Positions 5,804 through 23,271 of a stretch of 27,638 bases of DNA are shown one piece after another. The stretch is from a virus. The notes under the pieces are model-generated. The model ran no database searches. It was not told where the DNA came from and saw only the letters and a list, made by a program, of their open reading frames with translations. The translations under genes and the position numbers were made by a program. Positions within the stretch are counted from its first letter, which is position 1. Each line of letters begins with the position of its first letter. The DNA is taken from positions 1-27,638 of IMG/VR virus record IMGVR_UViG_3300032238_000485. One strand, 5' to 3'.

Positions 5804-6462
5804 TGCCTAAAGAAACGTACACCCGCACAGGGCAAGAAGTGGCCACCGAAGTAACTAGAATCTTTGGTGACGATTCCCTTATTGAGATAACCAATGCAGA
5901 CCTATTACGCTGGATTAACATGGCTCAGCGTGAAATTGCTTCCGCCAACAAGACTATTAAATCATCCGCAACTAGAGACATTGTTGCCAACCAGACCCTA
6001 TACATAATCCCTAGCAACATTCCTATCTTTCAGATTCAAGCACTATTTGTAAACGGTTTACCAGTTAAGCCGGTATCGTTCCAAATGGCACAGGAAATGA
6101 TTCAAAGCGATGACCCTAGCCTGAAGTACATTGGACAGCCAAAGATTTGGTATGAATGGGATGGGGATATCTATATCCATCCAGCACCAGAAAAGGACAT
6201 CGTAGACGGCCTAGTTATCTACTATATCCAGCAACCTGACGACATTGCGCTACTTGCGGACACACTACAAGTTCCTGACCGTTTCTACAACCAGATTGTA
6301 GATTACGTACTAGGGCAGGCATACCGCTTGGATGAAAACTGGCAAGCAACTCAATACCAGGATGCTCGTTTCCGTGATTCTATGAACCGTATTGTTGGTC
6401 AAGAAGACATTATCGATCAGCAGTACTACCCATCGAAGACAGTATTGTCGGAGGATGAATAA
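5803..6462 (+). CDS. Head-to-tail adaptor protein (gp11-like)
   Basis: A 219-residue protein expected to form the ring below the portal. It has the usual adaptor plan: an N-terminal helix-turn-helix pair (VATEVTRIFGDD, then LLRWINMAQREIASAN) and a beta segment with LYIIPSNIPIFQIQALFVNG and IYIHPAPE motifs, followed by LVIYYIQQPDDI and two terminal helices (DRFYNQIVDYVLGQAYRL). This resembles phage adaptor proteins equivalent to T7 gp11 or P22 gp4 in position and layout. Start and stop are both TAATG overlaps with neighbours. Confidence 0.82.
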   Translation: MPKETYTRTGQEVATEVTRIFGDDSLIEITNADLLRWINMAQREIASANKTIKSSATRDIVANQTLYIIPSNIPIFQIQALFVNGLPVKPVSFQMAQEMIQSDDPSLKYIGQPKIWYEWDGDIYIHPAPEKDIVDGLVIYYIQQPDDIALLADTLQVPDRFYNQIVDYVLGQAYRLDENWQATQYQDARFRDSMNRIVGQEDIIDQQYYPSKTVLSEDE

Positions 6463-6764
6463 TGGCTAGTTCAGCTTGGCAAAGATCTGCAGGTAAAAAC
6501 CCTAACGGTGGATTAAATGAGACCGGGAGAAGAGCTTACGAAGCTTCACATCCAGGTTCTGATCTAAAGCCACCTGTTAAGTCAGGTGTTAATCCACGCA
6601 GGGCGTCGTTCCTTGCACGTATGGGTAACATGCCTGGGCCTGAATACAAGAACGGTAAGCCTACTCGACTACTTAAATCCCTACAAGTTTGGGGTGCATC
6701 ATCTAAAGCAGACGCTAAAGCAAAAGCTGCTGCACTATCTAAGGCATTGAAAGCTGGTAAATAG
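6462..6764 (+). CDS. Small basic DUF6321/DUF6496-like protein
   Basis: A 100-residue basic protein. The pattern W-x-R-S-A-G-K-N-P-N-G-G-L-N, then GRRAYE, PRRASFLARMGNMPGP and KNGKPTRLLKSLQVWG matches the small phage family I know as DUF6321/6496-like, common near structural genes of environmental phages; its biochemical role is not established. The C-terminus is an Ala/Lys helix. The gene is coupled on both sides, by TAATG upstream and TAGTG downstream. Confidence 0.72.
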   Translation: MASSAWQRSAGKNPNGGLNETGRRAYEASHPGSDLKPPVKSGVNPRRASFLARMGNMPGPEYKNGKPTRLLKSLQVWGASSKADAKAKAAALSKALKAGK

Positions 6765-10258: not shown

Positions 10259-13200
10259 ATGTCTCCAACTAATAAGGAAACTGCTGACCTCATAAGAAGA
10301 GTTAGGGGTGCTTCAAGTATTCCACCTCAGGCCGCTATGCCTAATGGCGGTACCCGCAGTGGTTTCACTGACTTTGGACACGTTGCCCCATACGACCCTA
10401 CTGTTCTACAAAAAGCTACACAAGAGGGTCAAGACCTTTCATCCAAGGTAGTAGAAGGTGGCATGAATGCCTTTGGTTACACTATCCGAGTTATCTCTGG
10501 TTTACAGCGTGGTGTGACTAACCTAGCCGCCGGTGTACTACCTCACGCGAACAACATCTGGGATACCTACAAAGATGGTTTCCAGTTTGAAGACGTCGGC
10601 AAAACTGCCAAAGAAGCTTACAACGCTGCCACTCAGGGAGCATGGGGTGCAGCTAAAGGTATTGCTGTATCCGGTGTACCTATCGCAGAAGAGCTAATCA
10701 AAAAGTTTGATGATAGACCGATTTATGAATGGGGTGCAGACCTATTCAAATCTGACGAATTTAGTCGTGCAATGAATAACCTTAAAGATAGCCCATTAAA
10801 TGCGATAAATGAGGCTACTCCGTATAGGGCAATACAAAAAGTATTTGGCAGTGACTTCGGATCTTTTGAAGATTTATCAAAATTAAACAGTCCTGAGTAT
10901 GCTGATGAAAAAGTCTTTGGTGGTATATCTATTCCATTTACCCCTATCCAGAACTTTATGCCACTATCTAGAGCTGAAACCTATGGATTAGGGTGGGATA
11001 TAACTACCGACCCTACAACATATGCGACTATGGGTCTTGCTGGTGCCATAAAAGGAGGCGCTAGAGGCATTAGCAGCGTCGCTAAGTACCAGAAGTCAGG
11101 TAAGGCAGCAAACTTCGCTGATATAGCCCCACAGGCCCTTCCTAGGCCATATTATGGAGTGGCTAAGGGTGGTAAAAAGGTAGCTATCCCTAACCCGACA
11201 TACACGGTTATGAACACTTCTCCGATAACCTACATCGTCAAGGAAATGGGTCGTGGATTTACTGAGGCACATAAGGCTAGATTGCACTATGCGGCATCGA
11301 AAAAGGCTGCATTGCAGGCTGTGCAGGAATATCAAACTGCCCTAGGTGAAGGACTACTTGGCAAAGAAGGTATGACACCACAATACGTGGAAGAATTTGC
11401 CGCAGCAACTAGAGATAGAGTGCTTCAGAACAAGAAAATGTCCCTAATTGAACAGGGCATTACAGATCCAATGGAAATTGAAAAGCTTGTTATGGAGACA
11501 ACTAAGGCACTGGAAGACCATGCTGCTGAAGTTGCTGCAAAAGCACCTGAAATCATTGCTGCTCTAAGCAGTAAGGAAGCTGCTGCAAACATCCAGCGCA
11601 TCGCGGAAGAAAACGGAATCACCCCGATAGAAGCTAGCGTAATAGAAATCGCAAACGCAACATCAAGAGGTCTAAGAAGAACTAGCCTGGCTATTCCACG
11701 TACAAAAAACCCTAAGATTAACGCTGAGCAATCACTCGAATTTAGCCGAGCAATGAAGGCACTGTCAGAACCAGACAACATTAATCCTGATTTTGGTGGC
11801 GGATGGGATGTCCTTGCTAAAACAGCATCCACAGAAACACTTAGACACGTATTCGATTCAATGGCAATGCCTATTGGATATAGAGAAAAATGGGCTGCAG
11901 CTGCCGCACAAAGTGCCGCCGAGAGAATGTCTGACGCCGGAGACCTTGTTCGACAAATGTATGGTTTGTCTCTTAGCCCTATGGCCGCTAAGAGCAGAAA
12001 GCCTGCTACTGATTTAGTGCAAGTTGACCAGCGAGTAGCCAAGGGTATTACTAGAGCAACTTGGGTTGTCAAGAACCCTAAAGAACTTAACCAGATTATG
12101 AAGATGCTTAGGCAGATTAAATCTACAAGAGAAGGTGCTGGAAGCAAAACCACACTACCAAGATCGATTCCTTCTGCAAAAGAGATTATTGCCGCACCGC
12201 AGTTCTTCTTAGATAACCTGACCAAAAACTACTACGAAGATGTTGTTAGAAAAACACTAAAGAACAGCAGACCGTGGGATGAACTGTATGTAACAGAAAA
12301 AGCTACATACGCTGAGCAGATCATTGCTGACCCTTCACTAATTCCGGGTTCAGTATTCCAGAAGTCATTACCTTCACCAACCCTAATGAGCGTAAGAATC
12401 GAATACATGACCGAACGTTCATTGGGGCAACAGACCGCAGAATACACTGCTGTGGAAAAGTGGAAGTCAATGGGATACAACCCGGTTACATTGCGGACAC
12501 AGCACCCTAAGCTTTACACGCTTGTATTTGACAGGGCAGATAAGGCTCCAGGCAAACAGGTAACTCTATCTGAAGTAATTAGACTTACCAACGTAGCCGC
12601 CGGTAGACTACAAGACCCTGTACTAAACAAGATTCTGTACAAGCTTGGAGTTAACCGTGCATCTCTTCACACACCTAATGGCCTATTGGATATGCCCCAG
12701 GTTGAAGAGATCCTACACAACGCACACACTGCTGTTATGGCTAAAGAACGTAGTCAGTTCCTTGCAAGACTTCAGGTTGAGAATACTGGAGAACTAGGTG
12801 CAGATGCTCTAGTAGACCCAACTCTACTGAACATAGATATGGAAGCATTGCTAGGACAACACATTGCTGACCTACAGGCTAAGGGTAGATTAGTTACATC
12901 AGATGAAATCAAACTTGCCGTAGAGAAACTAGCCGACATTCAGGAAGCTCAAATTGCAGCAAAAGATAAGCTAGCAAAATATGGATTTGATCCACTAGGT
13001 GCAGGTAGCCCTGCATTTGGTATGCTAACTAAATTTGATTCACCTGTTGCAAAGAAGTCTTCTACAACAGAAGCAAGAGCCCTAAAAGAACTTAAGGCAA
13101 TTGTTGAGTCAGTAAAAGACGTAAACATTCCACCAGAGCAGGCATACAACAACATGGTTGCAAAACTATCCGAGATTATGGATAGACCTAACGTATCTGC

Positions 13201-16200
13201 CTTGATTAAAAATGGGATTAAACAGATTATTGGTACTGGTGCTAAGGCTCGTAAAACACCTATAAGCCCAGACATGCTAAAGAGCTATTTTAGTCTAATC
13301 GGCAATATCATCCGTCAAGTGGAAGATAAAGTTAAGGTTGGCACTACAGCTGGATACGATGTTGTCTTCTCTAAAAAAGGTGGAGAATATGACCAGCAGG
13401 CAATTGACACATTCTTAGAGCAAGCGTACAGGGCAAGTAAGTCACAGGACTCTCTTGATGGCGGATACTTTGCTGACCAGATAGAGATGCTTGCTAAAAA
13501 GAAGCTAGGTAAGTCAAAGGACTACAAGCCTTTGCGTGAACAGTCACCTGAAGAAGTCAGAAAGACTCTACAGAACATAGGTCCATGGAACGGTGAAGGC
13601 ATGTCTGCTAGTTTGCTACAGACCATCATTCGTTTTACTGAAAGACAAACCGGTAGAGTAAAATCTAAACCTCTAACTGAACTTGAAAAGCAGGATATTC
13701 AAAGAAGCGAAGATGCCCTTTATGAAGGCATTATGGCGGCTTTGATTAAAGAAGAAGAGAAGATCTATCTCGCTGAACGGAAAGCACTGAAGCCTGTCAC
13801 TGAAGACACCGGCGAAGGTAGAATGATTAGAGTCGCTCCCGAGAACCTTCAGAACGAAGAAGAAGTTGCCGTTTACGAAAGTATTGTTAAGCCAAGAACT
13901 GTTCGAATTGATTCCAACGGTGAAATCCTAGGACTGCTCAATAAGTTTAAAGATGCCGTAAACGCGGCTATAGGCCAGGGTTACACTATTAAAGTTCCTG
14001 CGCTAGAAATAGTTGATAAAACAAATAAAGAAAAACTAATCAAGGTTGGATTAAACGACTTAAAGCCTGGAGATGAACTAAAGTACAAGTACTTCCTTGA
14101 TCTTTCACTTAACATACAGAAGTCGATGAAAGATGGCGGAAAAGTCAGCGAAGAGATTCTTCGTATTTGGCAAATCACTAAAGAACTTTCACAAACCAGC
14201 ATAGCTAGAGCAGAATCTAGAGCCGGTGGAGCAATCGTGCGAATGAGAGCAAGAAAAGCTGCGGAAGAAATATTCCCTAAATTTGCCTCTGCCGCAAGAA
14301 TGACTGAAGCTGCTGCAAAGATTACAGACAAAGTAAAAGCTGGAGTTCACTGGAGAGCGAGAGCATGGCTTGGAACATTCGTTGTCCAAGCTGATTCAGG
14401 TATTCGCGACATCGAGAAAAACGACCCTATTCTAGCGAGATTGTCTAAGGTAACTAGACCTGAAGACGGGCCACTAATTGAAAAGGAAAAGGCGCTTTTC
14501 ATAAAGATAGTCAAGGACTTGAGAGATAAATATCTCAAAGAAGGTTACAAGGCTAGCAAGGAAGACCTGACTGAGAAGTCTATCCAAGAAGTCATCGCAA
14601 TGGAAAACCCTATCGACTTCCTACGCAAGATTACAACCATGATTGTAAAAGACGATAAAGAAGCTGAGGCGTGGGGTATTGCAATGGGGCACCTGTCAAC
14701 CATGACTGTACAGGGCAAGCCTGGTCGCTACGATAGCTTTGCTGAATTGATTAAAACCTACAAGTCTGCCAGCAGGGAACAGAAGCCTGGAGACATCAGC
14801 ATTGTTACCGGTAAGCAAATCCCTACGGATAAAGAAGTGCTGCAAGTTCTTTCTGGTTTTGATGAAACTATTAGCGAAGCTGCGATGAAACTTCTTGCTC
14901 AGCCGGAGATTAGAAGAAACACAGTTCTAATGCTTCTAAAGAAACTTGACAAGACAGTAGAAAAAGCCGACCTAGAGGACGCACAGACCGGCGAACTCAT
15001 GGCAAGAATACATGCTCCTGGAGCAGATCAGATTCAAGCGGTTGCAGACAACCTACCTGATCCAAAGATAATGCAGCAAGAACTTGTAAACCAGTTTGCA
15101 CTCGAGCGTGTGAAACTGCACAACGAAGGTTTAGGTTGGCTAGAAATCCTGGTCGCTGAAGCTGTTGGAAAGGAAAACAAGCAATTCATCCTTGACCGTT
15201 TTGAGACACACACCACAGCAGAGACAGATCTTCTAGGAAGAACTATCGATGTCAATGAACCAAAGTTTACACCTGACCGCAGCACTATGAAGCGTTCATA
15301 TGAAACCACAAGCGTGCTTCTCACTGGATGGAAGAAGATTGTTGGTGGACTAAGCGAAATGGCTACCGCCAAGGGATTGGCATACGGTACTGAAGAGCGT
15401 ATGCAGTTTATGACTGAAATGGCTCTAAGAGCTTTGAGACTAAGAGACATGCACCTAAATATCCTAGGCATCTTCCCGTCAAGCTCATGGAGACTAAAGC
15501 GCAAAGAGAACATCATTGTTAAGCTAAATGCTTTTACTCCAGAAGAAGCTGCTTTGAAAGCAAAGCCAGCATATTTGAGTGATGCAGATATCCTAGATAT
15601 TTTCCCTCAGAACTTGGTTGCAAACATGCTATTTGTTGGGCCAATGGCTTCTATGCCAATCACTGCATTTGCACCAGCCGCTTCATTGCTAGTTACCGCA
15701 ATGGATACACTCAAGGCAGGTAGTTACTTTAGTAAAGAAGAGTTGAACATCCTTACAACTAAAATGGCTGAACTTATGCGCAATGATGCAAGCTTTGCAT
15801 CTCCAATCGCAAAGGGTTCTGACATAAGTCACTATGGATTAAATGCAGCTGAATTTGAGCAAAACATTAGAACCATTGTTGCATGGATGGTTGAACCAGA
15901 GAACGCATTTAAGCTATGGGACCAGCACGTTCTGAACGCAGCATATGCTTCAAAGATTTACAAGTACAAGTCAGGAAAGGTCACTGCACCAATTATTGAC
16001 GGTTTGTTAAAGATGTTCTCTAACTCATTTGCGTCTGTTGGAAACAAGATTGAAGCTGTACTTAATGCCAGCGAAGAGCTTAGAAAACTAACTGGCCGTG
16101 GTGAACTGACTGAAGAAGTACTATTCCAGGCTGAACTAGACCTTAATGCTGTACTTGCTGCACACATCGATAGAGACAGTTTTACTATCGCACAAGAAGC

Positions 16201-18793
16201 ACTCAGAATTGAAGCTGCAAATGCGTCCCCTGAAGGTCAAGCTATTCTTGCATCACAGCGTAAGGCGGCTAATGGTAACCCTATGCAGCAGATTAATGCT
16301 ATTAGACTTCAAACAGCCCAGAGCAGAGATCCTCTCTACATGAACCTAGCCGGTATGAGAAACCTAAATGAAGCCGTAAAGGCACCTCAAATAGGAAAAG
16401 ATGACCCATTCGATGTATTCCACGATCATTTGACTGCTGAAGTTCGTACTAACCTAACATTGAAATTTGGTGAAAAGTTTGGTCGTCTATTCTTTGATTA
16501 CGGCATGGAAAAACTTCGCCCACTATACGGACCACACGAAAGAAACCGTATTATCGATGTTAGCTTGTTTGAACAAATTGGCGCAAACATGAAACAAAGA
16601 TGGTCTCAAGAATTCCCTGACAGAAATATTTTAGGTGAAGCATGGCAGATAATCCAGAGAGTCCCGGCAGAAGTTAGAGACATCTCTTTTGAGGCTAGAG
16701 CCGCGCTAAGAGATGCTGCTGAAGAAGTAAGAAGAACCGGTAAGCAAGTCCTTACGCCAGATCAGTATGCTGAATTGATTAAAGAATCTAAGAAAATCGA
16801 TGAATTCCTTTCCTTAGACGATGAAGCATTAAACAGAGCAGTGTCCGAGCTTTGGAGTTTAGGTGGAAGAATCTTCTCTGGTGGAGAAAAGTCAATGCTA
16901 AAACGTTATGGATTAACACCATCATGGTTAAACAGAAACCTTTATGAAGTCGGTGGAGGAAACGTTAGGGCAGCAATTGACCCAGAAACAATGACCTATG
17001 TACGAGCTAAGGACGGTTACGCATTTAGAGATGCAAAGTCAATGGCATATATTTGGCAGGAATGGGAAATCGATAACCCTATTGAAATGATTGTCACTAT
17101 GAATGCCGCTATCCAGCGTGCACAGTTAATCCCTACAATAGCCGATGATGCTGTAAGAAAATACGGTATTCAAAAGTCATTTTACAAAAATGCAGCGGAA
17201 GCTAAAAAAGATGGCCTTGTTGCAATTAAAACAATAGAAAAGCCTCAGCGTGGTAGAGAACTGGTCTATTTCATGGATACGGAGAACTACTATTATCCTA
17301 TTGAAGTTGCACAGGAACTAAAAACATTTAGCGAATTCTTGGGTGAATTGAAATACATCCAGGGTGGCGGTATTGCTGAAAAGGTTCTGAGAAAGTTCAG
17401 TGAGCTCACAAACGTGGCTAAATCACTGATGACAATTCTAAGACCTGGAAACTATGTCCAGAACGGTCAGGGTGGTGTTTGGGTAAATGCTTTTGCTGGT
17501 ACTGTTTCACCGATGGCATACGGTAGAGCAATAAAGACTATGCAAGCCAGCGGAAGAAAAGCTGACTTTATTGACCTTAATGCACTTGAAGCCGAAATGG
17601 GTAAATATGAAGCGATGAAGGCTAAAGAAGGTTTTACTATTAAATCAGTTAACGATCCTAGAAAAACAGATTCTATGCTCGTCACTATTGCTGGCAAAGC
17701 ATACCCATTTAGTTATTCAGATCTAGAAAAGCTTGCAACTAAACATGGTATTAGAGTCCCTGTTGCCCAAAACCGTGACATGGATTTAGTCCAAGATGTT
17801 GCGGCTGCATCAAGTATTAGAGAAGCCAGTAAAGAACTTAGAAGAAAGATTGCTGGCAGATACAACAAGATTGTTCTTGGTGCCGGTAAAATTGCCGCAC
17901 AGCGTGATGAAGCCCTACGTTTAACATTGTTCCTAGATGAACTAGGTAAGAACAACTGGAAGTCGCTAGAAGCTGGTGCAGTAGAAGCTATGAAGAAAGT
18001 TGATCGTTATCACCCACAGGTGCAAGACCTATCAACTCCACTACAAAAAGCTAGACCATTCTTGATGTTTATTACTTGGAAACAAAAGATGATGGCTACA
18101 GTTCTAGGTGACTTGCTACAAAGACCTGGGCCAATGCTTAACTCAATTAGAGTAACTCAGGCAAGTAACAATTCTCAAGAGCAATCAAGGTCTAATACAT
18201 TTGGAAACTTGACTCCAGGTAGTGTTGCTTTGCCGGAAGACTACAAGTACAATCTTGACCCTATTGCAGTAGATCCTGTAACTGGAATGATGACACGCTA
18301 CTCGCTAGCAAACCCAGTGACAGACCTATATGGAAGCAATGGATTGTTGACCGGTATAAACTTCAACACCTATGAACCATTTACTGACCAGCTAATTCAG
18401 ATGACTCAAGAAACAGCAAACAAGCTGTTGAACCAGAGCTACCCATTTGTTCTGAAGGCTCTGTGGGAATATCCTCAAGGTAGAACCACTAGCGGACAGC
18501 AACTAGGGGCAAATGGATTTAATGCATTCCAGGATGCGCCACCGCTACTAAAAGACATTATGGTTTCAACCGGTTTAAACCCTGCCTATCAAACGATAGC
18601 TGCAATGTGGCCATGGTTAGCATCAGGTAAATCAGCTCAAATGTCAGGTGACCAGAGATTTAATGAAGTATGGAGAGCCTGGACTAACTTTGCAACCGGT
18701 GCCAAGCTAACACCGCTAGACACTATTCCAAATAGAAATAGGGGTATGCAGGAGCTTCTAGATAAGCTCAAAGCACTGCGAGAAATGCCCTAG
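10259..18793 (+). CDS. Giant internal virion/ejection protein candidate (2844 aa)
   Basis: One uninterrupted 2844-residue frame fills almost a third of the window. It follows nozzle and helical protein genes, where T7-like phages encode ejected core proteins such as gp16, though it is more than twice that length. Visible regions are: a Gly/Ala-rich hydrophobic stretch near residues 250-265 after DITTDPTTYATMG; long Lys/Glu/Ala-rich helical regions about 340-460 and 850-1600; a hydrophobic segment near 1785-1815 (NMLFVGPMASMPITAFAPAASLLV) that could enter a membrane; a KSLMTILRPGNYVQNG segment near 2390-2405, resembling the conserved motif of large polyvalent phage proteins; and PFLMFITWKQKMMATVLGDL near 2600. 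I see no convincing transglycosylase or polymerase active site. Arg codons are mainly AGA. Its stop overlaps a - strand stop. Confidence 0.8.
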   Translation: MSPTNKETADLIRRVRGASSIPPQAAMPNGGTRSGFTDFGHVAPYDPTVLQKATQEGQDLSSKVVEGGMNAFGYTIRVISGLQRGVTNLAAGVLPHANNIWDTYKDGFQFEDVGKTAKEAYNAATQGAWGAAKGIAVSGVPIAEELIKKFDDRPIYEWGADLFKSDEFSRAMNNLKDSPLNAINEATPYRAIQKVFGSDFGSFEDLSKLNSPEYADEKVFGGISIPFTPIQNFMPLSRAETYGLGWDITTDPTTYATMGLAGAIKGGARGISSVAKYQKSGKAANFADIAPQALPRPYYGVAKGGKKVAIPNPTYTVMNTSPITYIVKEMGRGFTEAHKARLHYAASKKAALQAVQEYQTALGEGLLGKEGMTPQYVEEFAAATRDRVLQNKKMSLIEQGITDPMEIEKLVMETTKALEDHAAEVAAKAPEIIAALSSKEAAANIQRIAEENGITPIEASVIEIANATSRGLRRTSLAIPRTKNPKINAEQSLEFSRAMKALSEPDNINPDFGGGWDVLAKTASTETLRHVFDSMAMPIGYREKWAAAAAQSAAERMSDAGDLVRQMYGLSLSPMAAKSRKPATDLVQVDQRVAKGITRATWVVKNPKELNQIMKMLRQIKSTREGAGSKTTLPRSIPSAKEIIAAPQFFLDNLTKNYYEDVVRKTLKNSRPWDELYVTEKATYAEQIIADPSLIPGSVFQKSLPSPTLMSVRIEYMTERSLGQQTAEYTAVEKWKSMGYNPVTLRTQHPKLYTLVFDRADKAPGKQVTLSEVIRLTNVAAGRLQDPVLNKILYKLGVNRASLHTPNGLLDMPQVEEILHNAHTAVMAKERSQFLARLQVENTGELGADALVDPTLLNIDMEALLGQHIADLQAKGRLVTSDEIKLAVEKLADIQEAQIAAKDKLAKYGFDPLGAGSPAFGMLTKFDSPVAKKSSTTEARALKELKAIVESVKDVNIPPEQAYNNMVAKLSEIMDRPNVSALIKNGIKQIIGTGAKARKTPISPDMLKSYFSLIGNIIRQVEDKVKVGTTAGYDVVFSKKGGEYDQQAIDTFLEQAYRASKSQDSLDGGYFADQIEMLAKKKLGKSKDYKPLREQSPEEVRKTLQNIGPWNGEGMSASLLQTIIRFTERQTGRVKSKPLTELEKQDIQRSEDALYEGIMAALIKEEEKIYLAERKALKPVTEDTGEGRMIRVAPENLQNEEEVAVYESIVKPRTVRIDSNGEILGLLNKFKDAVNAAIGQGYTIKVPALEIVDKTNKEKLIKVGLNDLKPGDELKYKYFLDLSLNIQKSMKDGGKVSEEILRIWQITKELSQTSIARAESRAGGAIVRMRARKAAEEIFPKFASAARMTEAAAKITDKVKAGVHWRARAWLGTFVVQADSGIRDIEKNDPILARLSKVTRPEDGPLIEKEKALFIKIVKDLRDKYLKEGYKASKEDLTEKSIQEVIAMENPIDFLRKITTMIVKDDKEAEAWGIAMGHLSTMTVQGKPGRYDSFAELIKTYKSASREQKPGDISIVTGKQIPTDKEVLQVLSGFDETISEAAMKLLAQPEIRRNTVLMLLKKLDKTVEKADLEDAQTGELMARIHAPGADQIQAVADNLPDPKIMQQELVNQFALERVKLHNEGLGWLEILVAEAVGKENKQFILDRFETHTTAETDLLGRTIDVNEPKFTPDRSTMKRSYETTSVLLTGWKKIVGGLSEMATAKGLAYGTEERMQFMTEMALRALRLRDMHLNILGIFPSSSWRLKRKENIIVKLNAFTPEEAALKAKPAYLSDADILDIFPQNLVANMLFVGPMASMPITAFAPAASLLVTAMDTLKAGSYFSKEELNILTTKMAELMRNDASFASPIAKGSDISHYGLNAAEFEQNIRTIVAWMVEPENAFKLWDQHVLNAAYASKIYKYKSGKVTAPIIDGLLKMFSNSFASVGNKIEAVLNASEELRKLTGRGELTEEVLFQAELDLNAVLAAHIDRDSFTIAQEALRIEAANASPEGQAILASQRKAANGNPMQQINAIRLQTAQSRDPLYMNLAGMRNLNEAVKAPQIGKDDPFDVFHDHLTAEVRTNLTLKFGEKFGRLFFDYGMEKLRPLYGPHERNRIIDVSLFEQIGANMKQRWSQEFPDRNILGEAWQIIQRVPAEVRDISFEARAALRDAAEEVRRTGKQVLTPDQYAELIKESKKIDEFLSLDDEALNRAVSELWSLGGRIFSGGEKSMLKRYGLTPSWLNRNLYEVGGGNVRAAIDPETMTYVRAKDGYAFRDAKSMAYIWQEWEIDNPIEMIVTMNAAIQRAQLIPTIADDAVRKYGIQKSFYKNAAEAKKDGLVAIKTIEKPQRGRELVYFMDTENYYYPIEVAQELKTFSEFLGELKYIQGGGIAEKVLRKFSELTNVAKSLMTILRPGNYVQNGQGGVWVNAFAGTVSPMAYGRAIKTMQASGRKADFIDLNALEAEMGKYEAMKAKEGFTIKSVNDPRKTDSMLVTIAGKAYPFSYSDLEKLATKHGIRVPVAQNRDMDLVQDVAAASSIREASKELRRKIAGRYNKIVLGAGKIAAQRDEALRLTLFLDELGKNNWKSLEAGAVEAMKKVDRYHPQVQDLSTPLQKARPFLMFITWKQKMMATVLGDLLQRPGPMLNSIRVTQASNNSQEQSRSNTFGNLTPGSVALPEDYKYNLDPIAVDPVTGMMTRYSLANPVTDLYGSNGLLTGINFNTYEPFTDQLIQMTQETANKLLNQSYPFVLKALWEYPQGRTTSGQQLGANGFNAFQDAPPLLKDIMVSTGLNPAYQTIAAMWPWLASGKSAQMSGDQRFNEVWRAWTNFATGAKLTPLDTIPNRNRGMQELLDKLKALREMP

Positions 18794-18804: not shown

Positions 18805-18930
18805 AGCCGGAATACGACCTTCTGCCCGTAATTTAGATAAAGTGATCGCTATGGCCTGTTTTTTGGGTAAATAGACACGTTTACCATTTTTGATATGGTA
18901 AGCCTTATCCCCTACGAATTTGTAAGGCAT
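18790..18930 (-). CDS. 46-residue basic protein, short DUF6496-like
   Basis: This gene is too short for common length cut-offs. It starts at ATG 18930-18928 in a TAATG overlap with the preceding - strand gene and ends at TAG 18792-18790. The product reads MPYKFVGDKAYHIKNGKR, then VYLPKKQAIAITLSKLRAEGRIPAKKPS: a KNGKRVYLPKKQAIAI...L motif typical of very small basic proteins of environmental phages related to the DUF6496 group. Eleven Lys/Arg-rich positions give a strongly basic helix. Coupling, the shared MPYK start with other genes here, and the sensible sequence support a real gene. The function is unknown. The stop overlaps that of the convergent giant gene by 4 nt. Confidence 0.72.
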   Translation of the reverse strand: MPYKFVGDKAYHIKNGKRVYLPKKQAIAITLSKLRAEGRIPAKKPS

Positions 18931-19175
18931 TAGTTGCGGAAGCCGGCTCCAGAGCTTAGAGAGCCTAGAACTGACATCATTGCTGACTTCTTGGGGCTAG
19001 AACCCTTCTTAGCAGGAAGTTTACCCATAAGGTTTTCTCTGTGCTTCTTAAGGACAGGTGGGCTCATAATACGCTTAGACTTGGTAGAACTACTAACCAC
19101 CTTACGTAGGTGCTGCTTTTCAGATTCGTCTTTCATACCTGGCTTGAGGTAAGAGTCATTTTCATCGTATGGCAT
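18930..19175 (-). CDS. Small basic hypothetical protein
   Basis: An 81-residue Lys/Ser-rich protein with AAGGATAATC before the ATG (AAGG about 6 nt upstream). It begins MPYDEN; a helical KDESEKQHLRKVV segment near 15-27 is followed by a polar, basic linker with KKGSSPKKS and a small hydrophobic SAMMSVLGSLSSGAGF end. No family is recognised. It lies at the distal end of the lysis/tail operon, with the 46-residue gene coupled behind it. Confidence 0.6.
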   Translation of the reverse strand: MPYDENDSYLKPGMKDESEKQHLRKVVSSSTKSKRIMSPPVLKKHRENLMGKLPAKKGSSPKKSAMMSVLGSLSSGAGFRN

Positions 19176-19183
19176 GATTATCC

Positions 19184-19453
19184 TTAGTGGGTTGGTGAGG
19201 CTGGGAGTAGAGTCTTTTTCTTTGGAGTAAGAGCTCTCTTTTTTGGATCAAGGTTACTAGTTCTGTTCAGCTTGTCCAGTGTTGCTTTATTCATCTGCTG
19301 AATCTTCTTTAGGAAAGCCTGCTGCTTCTTGTCAAATGTGCTGCCATAGTGAGTCTGGGTGTAGCCATAGTCACGCATAGGGTGCTTAGTTGGGGTTGGA
19401 GTGGGAGTTGGCTTAGGCTTAGTTTTAATTCCTATTCGACCGTTAAGTGGCAT
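19184..19453 (-). CDS. Small Lys/Pro/Thr-rich hypothetical protein
   Basis: An 89-residue basic protein starting MPLNGRIGIK, with a PTPTPTPTK repeat near residues 14-22, an aromatic DYGYTQTHYGSTF segment, and a helical KKQQAFLKKIQQMNKATLDKLN region near 42-63. The C-terminus is Lys-rich. No family is recognised. The ATG overlaps the holin candidate's stop (TAATG), so it is translated from the same message as the lysis genes. Confidence 0.6.
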   Translation of the reverse strand: MPLNGRIGIKTKPKPTPTPTPTKHPMRDYGYTQTHYGSTFDKKQQAFLKKIQQMNKATLDKLNRTSNLDPKKRALTPKKKTLLPASPTH

Positions 19454-19722
19454 TATTTGCTTTCCTTATCTGTCTTAGCTCTAACAGTTTCTACTGCAGA
19501 GTTAATTGCATTGTTGAAATCTTCATCAGGAACCTGACCCTTAATCGCAAAGACAAAGGATAGGGCACCAATAAGACCAATTACAGCGGCTAGTGAACCA
19601 AACATTGCTGATTGTAGTGCCGAGAATCCAAGTACGGAACCAGCGCCTAGACCAGCAATACCTGCACCCAAAGCGAATGCAAGAACTCTGAATAGTCTTT
19701 TAAGAAGATCGTTTTTAAGCAT
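19453..19722 (-). CDS. Holin candidate, two TM segments
   Basis: An 89-residue protein with a short basic N-terminus (MLKNDLLKRLFR), two hydrophobic Gly/Ala-rich segments at about 12-34 and 37-60, and a polar charged C-terminal helix (VPDEDFNNAINSAVETVRAKTDKE). This is the usual layout of two-TM holins that open the cytoplasmic membrane for the endolysin. It overlaps the end of the CHAP endolysin gene by 8 nt. A second small membrane protein is encoded at 21215-21460, so which of them is the actual holin is open. Confidence 0.72.
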   Translation of the reverse strand: MLKNDLLKRLFRVLAFALGAGIAGLGAGSVLGFSALQSAMFGSLAAVIGLIGALSFVFAIKGQVPDEDFNNAINSAVETVRAKTDKESK

Positions 19723-20239
19723 TTTTGACAGGATCCTTATCTGCTACTAGTCTCCATGATGGGCGTACAACGGCAACAATGTTCTTGTATGGGCGCTGCT
19801 TGTAGTAGCATCCATCGCCGTTCTTCTGGTCACCAGTGCCGTCAGGGTTAACGGTGTTGCCTTCAACACACTTGACGCGCTTAGTGATCTTATTGTGGCT
19901 AATAGCGATACCGACATGGTCTGGCTCATTAGTTCCACGAAAGTTCATGAACACGATGTCGCCTGGCTGAACTTTTTCAACAGGGATAATCTGGTTCATG
20001 TGAGTGTAGTGTTTGACGGCATGAGAACAAGAATGGAAACCCTTCTTAGTCTGAGCTCCGGCTACGAGTGCACCAGCACCAGCCTTGGCAAAGCAATAAG
20101 AGACGAACATGGCACACCATGCAGTCTGGTTTAAACCATACCATTCACCAAAGACACTGGTGTTGTTAGGTCCTTCTTTGTACTTTTTGTCCGCAAACGG
20201 GGTGGCTACCGCTAGGACATCTTTAGCGGTAATAGCCAT
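19715..20239 (-). CDS. CHAP-domain endolysin (peptidoglycan amidase/endopeptidase)
   Basis: A 174-residue single-domain enzyme that should cut peptidoglycan amide or peptide bonds for host lysis. The CHAP signature is clear: catalytic Cys42 in TAWCAMFVSYC, QPGDIVFMNF near 91-100, His108 in DHVGIAIS, and the polar residue region VEGNT at 125-129. No export signal is visible, so release through a holin is expected. There is no cell-wall-binding domain in this protein; two separate LysM proteins are encoded directly upstream in the operon. The start overlaps the LysM stop as TAATG. Substrate bond specificity cannot be told from the sequence. Confidence 0.88.
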   Translation of the reverse strand: MAITAKDVLAVATPFADKKYKEGPNNTSVFGEWYGLNQTAWCAMFVSYCFAKAGAGALVAGAQTKKGFHSCSHAVKHYTHMNQIIPVEKVQPGDIVFMNFRGTNEPDHVGIAISHNKITKRVKCVEGNTVNPDGTGDQKNGDGCYYKQRPYKNIVAVVRPSWRLVADKDPVKNA

Positions 20240-20577
20240 TAGCGACCCATTCCTCTGCCAGTTTTCTTAGGAGTTCTGGTTGGGTTTGGACCCATGTAGT
20301 TAGGACCAGGCATACCAGCCATGTCGTAAGCAGCAGGAGTATCACTCTTTTGGTTAGGAAGCGAAACACCAGTTCCAACGTTAAGCTTACGAAGCTTTCC
20401 ATTAACTGTGTTCATCTTCTTAATAGCACCAAACCATGATTCTAGAGACTTGCCCTTTGGAAGGGTTCTCTTTGCGATCGACCATAGACTGTCGCCAGCC
20501 TTAGCGTGAGTTGTTGAGCTAGAGTGCTTGGCGTTGCGGGTCTTGTACTTAGGGGTAGGAGGTGTCTTGTAAGGCAT
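20239..20577 (-). CDS. LysM-domain protein, short paralogue
   Basis: A 112-residue protein with one LysM-like domain at about residues 24-74 (AKAGDSLWSIAKRTLPKGKS ... AIKKMN ... KLRKLNVGTGVSLP). LysM domains bind N-acetylglucosamine-containing glycans such as peptidoglycan. The N-terminal 23 residues are Lys/Thr/Ser-rich and the C-terminal tail is Pro/Gly/Arg-rich; there is no signal peptide or catalytic domain. It is a clear paralogue of the neighbouring 207-residue gene. Context suggests it either gives wall binding to the adjacent CHAP enzyme or sits in the virion. A purine-rich AGAAAGAAA precedes the ATG. Confidence 0.85.
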   Translation of the reverse strand: MPYKTPPTPKYKTRNAKHSSSTTHAKAGDSLWSIAKRTLPKGKSLESWFGAIKKMNTVNGKLRKLNVGTGVSLPNQKSDTPAAYDMAGMPGPNYMGPNPTRTPKKTGRGMGR

Positions 20578-20591
20578 TTTTTTCTTTCTAC

Positions 20592-21215
20592 TTAAGAGCG
20601 TCTTGCTCCAGGTGGAAGCGATACACCAGTTCCGGTATATAGTCTTCTTAGTTTACCATTTTGTGTGTTCATTTTCTTGATAGCTAACCACCAAGATGAT
20701 ACTGATTCTCCCTTTGGAACTGTTTTCTCTGCAATCGACCATAGACTGTCACCCTTTGAGGCTGTGTATGAACGGCCACTGGCTGATAATCCTGATTGAC
20801 GAGATGAAGATGTTGATGAACCACCCTTTAAAGTGCCATTCTTTGCAGCCATTTTGGCTTGTGCTGCATATCGGTTAGACATTGCTGTGTCTGGCTTAGA
20901 CTTTCCAGAACTCATTGCTCTGCTAGAAGAACCAGTTTTGGTTCCTTCAGTGTTGCCCAATGCACCTAGTCCTGAAAGTACACCGGTAGCGATGGCAGCT
21001 TTCTTAACTTTACCCATTGGCTTCTTGTAAGGAACAACTGATCTGCCTGTTGGTACAAGTTCTTTGCTTGTAGAAGGCTTAATTTCGCCAGACTTAATCT
21101 TGCCCATTACGCGCTTGTTTTCTACTGCGACCTTGGTGCTACGGACAACCTTGCTGTTGTCTGCTGCTGACTTAGCGGCCTTGACTGCCTTTTCTAAAGC
21201 TTTCTTTAATGGCAT
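20592..21215 (-). CDS. LysM-domain protein, long paralogue
   Basis: A 207-residue protein when started at ATG 21215, which forms TAATG with the upstream stop; a start six codons earlier is possible but less likely. The N-terminal 50 residues are a basic Lys/Ala helix, residues 75-90 are mildly hydrophobic (AAIATGVLSGLGALG), and 90-148 are Ser/Gly-rich linker. A LysM domain occupies about 149-201 (TASKGDSLWSIAEKTVPKGES ... WWLAIKKMNTQNGKLRRL ... GVSLP), nearly identical in plan to that of the next gene, pointing to tandem duplication. It should bind peptidoglycan; a virion or lysis role is inferred. Confidence 0.83.
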   Translation of the reverse strand: MPLKKALEKAVKAAKSAADNSKVVRSTKVAVENKRVMGKIKSGEIKPSTSKELVPTGRSVVPYKKPMGKVKKAAIATGVLSGLGALGNTEGTKTGSSSRAMSSGKSKPDTAMSNRYAAQAKMAAKNGTLKGGSSTSSSRQSGLSASGRSYTASKGDSLWSIAEKTVPKGESVSSWWLAIKKMNTQNGKLRRLYTGTGVSLPPGARRS

Positions 21216-21460
21216 TACTTCGATCCAATCCAAGTGAAGATAAATGATGCGATAGCCACAACTCCAGCACCCAGGGCACTGTATGCAACTCTCTCTACCC
21301 AGTATAGCCTATCTAGGCGACTTTCGACGATTCTAACTCTATCGGGTAGGCTTGACAAGTTCTTCAGCTCAGCGATCATACGAATTTGATTTTCGTTAAT
21401 GTCCATGAGCTTCTGATACATCAAGGCATTAGTTACCTTCACATGAGTTTCTTCGTTCAT
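21215..21460 (-). CDS. XhlA-like small membrane protein
   Basis: An 81-residue protein with an N-terminal coiled-coil helix (about 8-50, LMDINENQIRMIAELKNL...RVRIVESRLDRL) and one C-terminal TM segment (about 58-78, AYSALGAGVVAIASFIFTWIG). This coil-then-single-TM plan is that of XhlA/holin-associated proteins of Gram-positive phages, which cooperate with a holin. The start has no Shine-Dalgarno site; instead a TAAACT -10 hexamer ends 6 nt before the ATG, so it may be leaderless. An internal in-frame ATG at codon 14 is an alternative start. It is coupled downstream to the long LysM gene. Confidence 0.7.
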   Translation of the reverse strand: MNEETHVKVTNALMYQKLMDINENQIRMIAELKNLSSLPDRVRIVESRLDRLYWVERVAYSALGAGVVAIASFIFTWIGSK

Positions 21461-22470: not shown

Positions 22471-23271
22471 TTATTTAACTCCGTATAGCGTCAGTGTGGC
22501 TGCAGCTGTAGAAGAAGTAATATCTACAGTCAGGCTATTAACTGCACCAGCAGACGCACAATAACCAGTCAATGCCAGTGATGGGCCTAAAGCACTGATA
22601 ACCTTACCGTTACCGCTCCTAGAGTAACCAGGAAGTTCAATAACATAAAGCGGAGTAGTTGAAGAAGCAGGGTTACCCAACAAAATGCTAGTTCCAGTAG
22701 TAGAAGTATCTGGGGTAGCAGTACCATAGATATTTCTAGTGTACGAATAAGTGCTAGCACCACTAATACCATTAAGCCTCAAAAAGAAACCAGAACCAGT
22801 AGGAGCGGTTCCTACAGAAGTAAAATCAATGTGCAAAACAAGTTTCTGATATCCGTAAGCGATGGAAGAAAAACTTACAGTCTGAGAACTGGCAGAAGTA
22901 GACAAAGACTGTTGATCTAGCTGAACATAACCTCTTTCACTCCAAGCAGCATATGGAGCTGTAAGGCTAGAAACAAGGACTTGGCCGGCAGCAGCAGGGG
23001 TAGCAATAAAAGTAGTAGTATCAGCCGCTGACTGGATTGGAATACGCTTAACAGCACCACCAACGATGTTCTGAGCTTTAGATACAGAACCACCAGTGCC
23101 AACAGTAACATTTAGGTTATTAATGTTAGAAGTGTGGTCAGCGAGAGTAGTGTTAGTGCTCGCGGCATGATCGTTAATAAGATCATAGTTGCTGTTGATA
23201 AGGTCAAGATCCACAACATCGTTGGCCTCCGGTTTCGCCAAATTTAATGGAGCATCTCCAGTAGTAGACAT
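22471..23271 (-). CDS. Tail fibre/appendage protein (receptor-binding candidate)
   Basis: A 266-residue protein. The N-terminus (LNLAKPEANDVVDLDLINSNYDLINDHA) resembles the virion-attachment start of many phage fibres, followed by a short repeat-rich helix (TTLADHTSNINNLN) and a joint region. From about residue 115 the sequence is Ser/Thr/Gly/Ala-rich beta structure, ending in VDITSSTAAATLTLYGVK, typical of trimeric receptor-binding tips. A strong GGAGG lies six nt before the ATG, which overlaps the upstream stop (TAATG). No chaperone or enzymatic motif is seen. The host receptor cannot be predicted. Confidence 0.75.
   Translation of the reverse strand: MSTTGDAPLNLAKPEANDVVDLDLINSNYDLINDHAASTNTTLADHTSNINNLNVTVGTGGSVSKAQNIVGGAVKRIPIQSAADTTTFIATPAAAGQVLVSSLTAPYAAWSERGYVQLDQQSLSTSASSQTVSFSSIAYGYQKLVLHIDFTSVGTAPTGSGFFLRLNGISGASTYSYTRNIYGTATPDTSTTGTSILLGNPASSTTPLYVIELPGYSRSGNGKVISALGPSLALTGYCASAGAVNSLTVDITSSTAAATLTLYGVK

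Follow-up and report, generated by a model that had tools for sequence, protein, structure and literature searches.

In the reading that we hold with slightly better than even confidence, the minus strand of the window, that is, the whole 27,638-base record IMGVR_UViG_3300032238_000485, carries a holin-endolysin cassette in which a bare CHAP enzyme would act as a self-sufficient endolysin and two free LysM proteins encoded beside it would serve as accessory wall binders that aid lysis. The plus-strand genes form a podovirus-type virion block with a P22-type portal, the major capsid protein, an SU10-type adaptor, a DUF6321 protein and a 2844-aa protein (10259-18793). The latter, without a Pfam or PHROG match and with no relative of its last 500 residues in an IMG/VR scan, is, judged by its position, probably an internal protein of the virion that is ejected. 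The portal shares 40-41% identity with that of Arthrobacter phage Jasmine and 36-38% with those of Cellulosimicrobium phage DS1 and Microbacterium phage Shocker. Judged from its genes the virus is a podovirus, kin of Jasmine, and because its portal matches these three phages we infer the host phylum to be that of the actinobacteria. Loci of relatives are labelled L003 to L173, several being contig fragments; four of them (L095, L097, L139 and L173), with portals 75-76% identical to that of the window, constitute its own genus-level group.

The cassette comprises five genes, transcribed in the order 81-aa membrane protein (21215-21460), LysM protein A (207 aa, 20592-21215), LysM protein B (112 aa, 20239-20577), CHAP/NlpC-P60 enzyme (174 aa, 19715-20239) and holin-like membrane protein (89 aa, 19453-19722). 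TAATG stop/start overlaps join the membrane protein to LysM A, whose ATG start overlaps the upstream stop, and LysM B to CHAP; 14 nt separate LysM A from LysM B, and the CHAP and holin-like genes overlap by 8 nt. This tight packing supports co-transcription of the five genes as one operon. All three open reading frames of the initial annotation lie where it had placed them, on the minus strand, and its proposal of a lysis operon is supported by the gene packing, the endolysin-family CHAP and the holin-like protein. Nevertheless, the operon also carries non-lysis genes, a fibre-like protein at 22471-23271 and a phosphoesterase, and therefore the neighbourhood alone is no proof of a lysis role. 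Neither the CHAP enzyme nor the two LysM proteins begin with a hydrophobic N-terminus of the signal peptide kind, as judged by hydropathy and sequence.

The 81-aa membrane protein has a single C-terminal transmembrane stretch (residues 58-76, hydropathy maximum 1.87), and homologues 61-67% identical to it occupy the same place in L095, L096, L097 and L139. It matches no Pfam model, XhlA included, while XhlA was matched by 9 of 132 proteins neighbouring CHAP genes; its resemblance to XhlA would be one of topology and position only. The holin-like protein was assigned by its hydropathy maximum (2.28) and its position, and is 23-25% identical to 94-aa membrane proteins that follow CHAP in L095 and L139. 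In PHROG it falls to family 26427, together with four proteins encoded next to CHAP in relatives; the name 'nuclease' given to that family is probably a mislabelling in the case of small membrane proteins such as these. A small basic protein (18930-19175) encoded downstream of the holin has counterparts in L095, L096, L097, L139 and L173, which vary in length and sequence and keep a short N-terminal-proximal motif like DENDSYLKPG-x-KDE (81-89% over 16-19 residues, judged by eye in L173).

Almost the entire chain of the CHAP enzyme is taken up by the catalytic domain in the predicted model (pLDDT 89.5, below 50 only in the last 7 residues), which together with the Pfam matches confirms the early view of a catalytic domain without a binding domain. 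The enzyme scores above the curated cut-offs of Pfam NLPC_P60 (E=5e-7, 30 bits, cut-off 23) and CHAP (E=2e-6, 28.5 bits, cut-off 26), has the conserved Cys-His pair and matches a PHROG endolysin at E=2e-40. Residues C42, H108, E126 and N128 are invariant among 33 aligned sequences. The closest solved structure is CwlO (8wt3, E=7e-4), and Ly7917 and LysIME-EF1 (6ist) are also among the nearest. The protein is most likely a self-sufficient small endolysin.

The bareness of this enzyme had been taken as an anomaly, and the survey of its relatives does not bear this out. A profile scan of IMG/VR with CHAP gave 80 loci, which, dereplicated at 85% identity and joined by five earlier loci and Actinomyces phage xhp1, yielded 38 relatives. 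Counting as bare any CHAP with fewer than 25 residues after the domain, 31 of the 38 are bare, a proportion that describes this set and not population frequencies, since the scan is biased towards closer relatives. Three (L007, L016 and L037) carry LysM fused to CHAP, the CHAPs of L066 and xhp1 show by eye apparent peptidoglycan-binding repeats, and those of L019 and L034 have low-complexity tails. Descent of the window's LysM proteins from a fused form finds no support, fused LysM being a 3/38 minority. Nor is the idea that the fused form is ancestral supported by this set, in which L007 has one LysM fused to CHAP and another free. Endolysins consisting of a bare CHAP are thus ordinary in this group, which matters when such enzymes are annotated or chosen.

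The two free LysM proteins are a real duplication, as first proposed, because their cores are identical at 35 of 48 residues and at 71% of the core DNA; by blastp the identity is 72% over 50 residues (E=3e-23), far beyond chance, and the words GDSLWSIA, PKG-x-S, AIKKMN, NGKLR and GTGVSLP are all present in both. The Pfam LysM cut-off of 20.9 bits is narrowly missed by LysM B (20.5 bits, E=4.5e-4) and clearly by LysM A (16.6 bits); identity as LysM domains is supported by the predicted fold and by profile matches to LytE (E=1e-4) and Kbp (E=1e-3). The AlphaFold model of LysM B adopts the beta-alpha-alpha-beta LysM fold (strands 21-24 and 70-73, helices 31-38 and 45-56) with pLDDT 85-89 over the domain, and its top matches among PDB and viral models are mostly LysM, each at E>0.005, which the small size of the domain would lead one to expect.

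Outside the core the two proteins differ completely, as the initial annotation had it. In LysM A a basic low-complexity region of 150 aa precedes the LysM domain (residues ~150-201), and in LysM B the domain comes at residues ~21-73, ahead of a C-terminal tail. Both are very basic (pI 10.7-10.8, LysM B 10.7). Neither protein alone, nor an alignment of the two cores, retrieved relatives from IMG/VR, and none of 50,697 phage records gave a match to LysM A; an alignment of three cores recovered L097 again, together with L173. The homologues of LysM A in L097 (223 aa, 65% over 52 residues) and L173 (205+ aa, the gene being cut by the contig end) share its plan of a long basic low-complexity region followed by LysM. 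The L097 core agrees with LysM A at 32 of 48 positions and with LysM B at only 23 of 48; by these identities LysM A is the conserved type and LysM B the derived copy. In L173 (1-618) the low-complexity part is a tandem array with a ~35-aa unit, RSTGGANPEKITGSMTPPKAGARPSVGKPAPEQTP, and the length of the array may vary between phages.

L005, L006, L007, L097 and L173 each have a free LysM gene directly 5' of CHAP. In the first three, whose upstream genes resemble by eye long-tail genes, a 71-98 aa protein, with weak or absent Pfam support as LysM, is encoded between a small transmembrane protein and CHAP. Those of L005 (3373-3666) and L006 (5737-5988) begin with AIDGDGDG-x-VQEGTEFERPV, which is rich in Asp and Gly and resembles a calcium-binding loop, with a weak Excalibur match in L005. 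Taken as sequences, the free and the fused LysM found with this CHAP family are a recurrent link between both domains. Within the genus-level group LysM is directly upstream of CHAP in L097 and L173 and is absent from L095 and L139, where none was found elsewhere either. The pair L097 and L139 is the most telling: their membrane proteins are 95%, phosphoesterases 94%, 245-aa proteins 93% and CHAPs 80% identical, yet L139 has CHAP right after the membrane protein, whereas in L097 the 223-aa LysM gene sits exactly between them. The CHAPs closest to that of the window (74-78% identical) are those of L003 and L004, in which LysM is missing from the cassette and from the rest of the fragment alike, although in fragments the absence of a gene proves little outside an intact cassette. 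The CHAP of L097, on the other hand, is only about 42% identical to that of the window, though L097 has LysM. In L096 a bare M23 peptidase, unaccompanied by LysM, takes the slot behind the membrane protein. Of the 74 loci retrieved via the phosphoesterase, most were left unused, belonging to other phage types or having only spurious-looking open reading frames after it. From the comparisons of L097 with L139, of L003 and L004, and of L096 it follows that LysM is neither tied to one CHAP nor needed in the cassette; by sequence comparison the two genes are inherited independently, and the LysM proteins are most likely non-essential.

Taking these data together, we propose that the slot which the LysM genes fill, flanked by the genes of the small membrane protein and the hydrolase, is a detachable one, where they would be gained, lost and duplicated independently of the hydrolase. 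With their translation coupled to that of the endolysin and no signal peptide, LysM A and LysM B would stay in the cytoplasm until the holin opens the membrane, and would then bind the wall beside CHAP. There they could help in trans by loosely recruiting or retaining CHAP, by exposing bonds, or by coating wall debris. Wall binding by LysM, holin-mediated release and the benefit to lysis are what we infer here. If LysM does act in trans, the cassette would be a natural two-gene targeting of a lysis enzyme without fusion, and near-identical phages with and without the binder would provide a clean comparison of what a binding domain contributes.

The absence of LysM from a close relative's lysis cassette also fits a function outside lysis. 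The LysM proteins could be minor components of the virion that keep the particle attached to the host wall during entry and are encoded in the lysis operon by coincidence, a reading that we regard as unlikely although it draws on several observations. LysM is known from phage baseplate proteins, and phiCD508 and cyanophage A-1(L) are among the weak fold matches; a fibre-like protein is encoded in the same operon; LysM A and its homologues have long, stalk-like N-termini of low complexity; and the tail of LysM B resembles DUF6321, which is encoded in the head/tail gene block. More precisely, the tail motif MAGMPGPNYMGPNPTR (20239-20310) resembles MGNMPGPEYKNGKPTR of the window's own DUF6321 protein (6462-6764), a likeness spotted after the fact; against that protein 2 of 5000 shuffles attained the alignment score, and against all predicted window proteins 0 of 300 did so. 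Of 10,180 open reading frames none but LysM B and two DUF6321 proteins contain the motif, while Pfam does not recognise DUF6321 in LysM B. According to PHROG matches, several larger phage proteins carry DUF6321-like sequence C-terminally. The tail may be a small pointer towards an optional virion role of LysM B. Against this, the LysM genes lie on the strand opposite the main virion block, directly coupled to CHAP, and free LysM directly adjoins CHAP in L005-L007 too. Moreover, LysM genes are neither located in the virion block nor kept with the virion genes, being precisely absent from L095 and L139. An essential structural role is unlikely because these relatives, with portals ~75% identical, have no LysM gene; LysM as an optional part of the virion is possible.

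Somewhat more doubtful is an extension of the lysis reading in which wall targeting is kept as a separate, swappable gene: a long-stalk LysM would work in trans with whichever CHAP is installed, the duplicates would differ in reach, and the DUF6321-like tail on one of them may tie it to the particle. Improbable, in turn, is an obligate multi-subunit endolysin of the PlyC kind, with CHAP as the catalytic and the LysM protein or proteins as the binding subunits of a stable complex. The initial annotation had offered a multi-subunit enzyme, and adjacent, coupled genes, the bareness of CHAP and the fusion of LysM to CHAP in a few relatives are all in keeping with one. However, the co-inheritance that such a complex predicts fails: L003, L004, L095 and L139 have CHAP without LysM, the first two with the CHAPs closest to that of the window; LysM homologues (~65% identical in the core) adjoin CHAPs only ~40% identical to it; near-identical phages occur with and without LysM; and a bare CHAP is the norm of the clade. 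Least probable of all is that the LysM proteins control lysis, either delaying it by capping the wall or competing with CHAP, or binding debris and thereby saving particles or enzyme from loss after release; a bare enzyme accompanied by a very basic binder in two copies, which near-identical phages can have or lack, would suit such a role, but a released lysis enzyme is classically limited by the holin and not by access to the wall.

With respect to known systems, the PBSX-type lysis cassette consists of XhlA, holin and endolysin. The window likewise groups a small single-transmembrane protein, an endolysin and a holin-like protein, but its small protein is without a match to the XhlA model and the LysM genes are additional. 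In PlyC of streptococcal phage C1, PlyCA and PlyCB are two genes of one operon and one PlyCA associates with eight PlyCB (PMC7098653). The separation of catalytic and wall-binding parts into different genes of one operon is common to both; unlike in PlyC, the binder of the window is a LysM protein whose presence varies even among near-identical phages and whose evolution is not coupled to that of the enzyme. The endolysins LysIME-EF1, Lys170, CTP1L and CD27L are co-produced with extra free wall-binding domains from one gene (PMC7098653). The window resembles them in that free binders are made alongside the enzyme, and the CHAP of LysIME-EF1 (6ist) is a structural match to its own; it differs in that a separate gene, and not that of the endolysin, supplies the binder. 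Literature searches turned up no paper on lysis proteins of the free LysM kind. Aerococcus phage vB_AviM_AVP was considered as a precedent for free LysM next to a bare enzyme and dropped, since its 495-aa LysM protein looks amidase-like by eye in the N-terminal half, which Pfam does not match, and its 178-aa neighbour is a glucosaminidase in spite of the label LysM. Lysins split or free of binding domains are also found in actinobacteriophages: lysis functions are spread over two genes in Arthrobacter phage Maggie (PMC5513430), among 16 reference Gordonia phages, seven have two single-domain lysA genes and only 6 a defined wall-binding region (PMC9671378), and Microbacterium phage Shocker has two adjacent endolysin genes. 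Those splits yield two enzymes, whereas the additional genes of the window encode non-catalytic LysM proteins. The cassette belongs with known kinds of split and bare lysins, to which its separate LysM genes would add a modest new variation.
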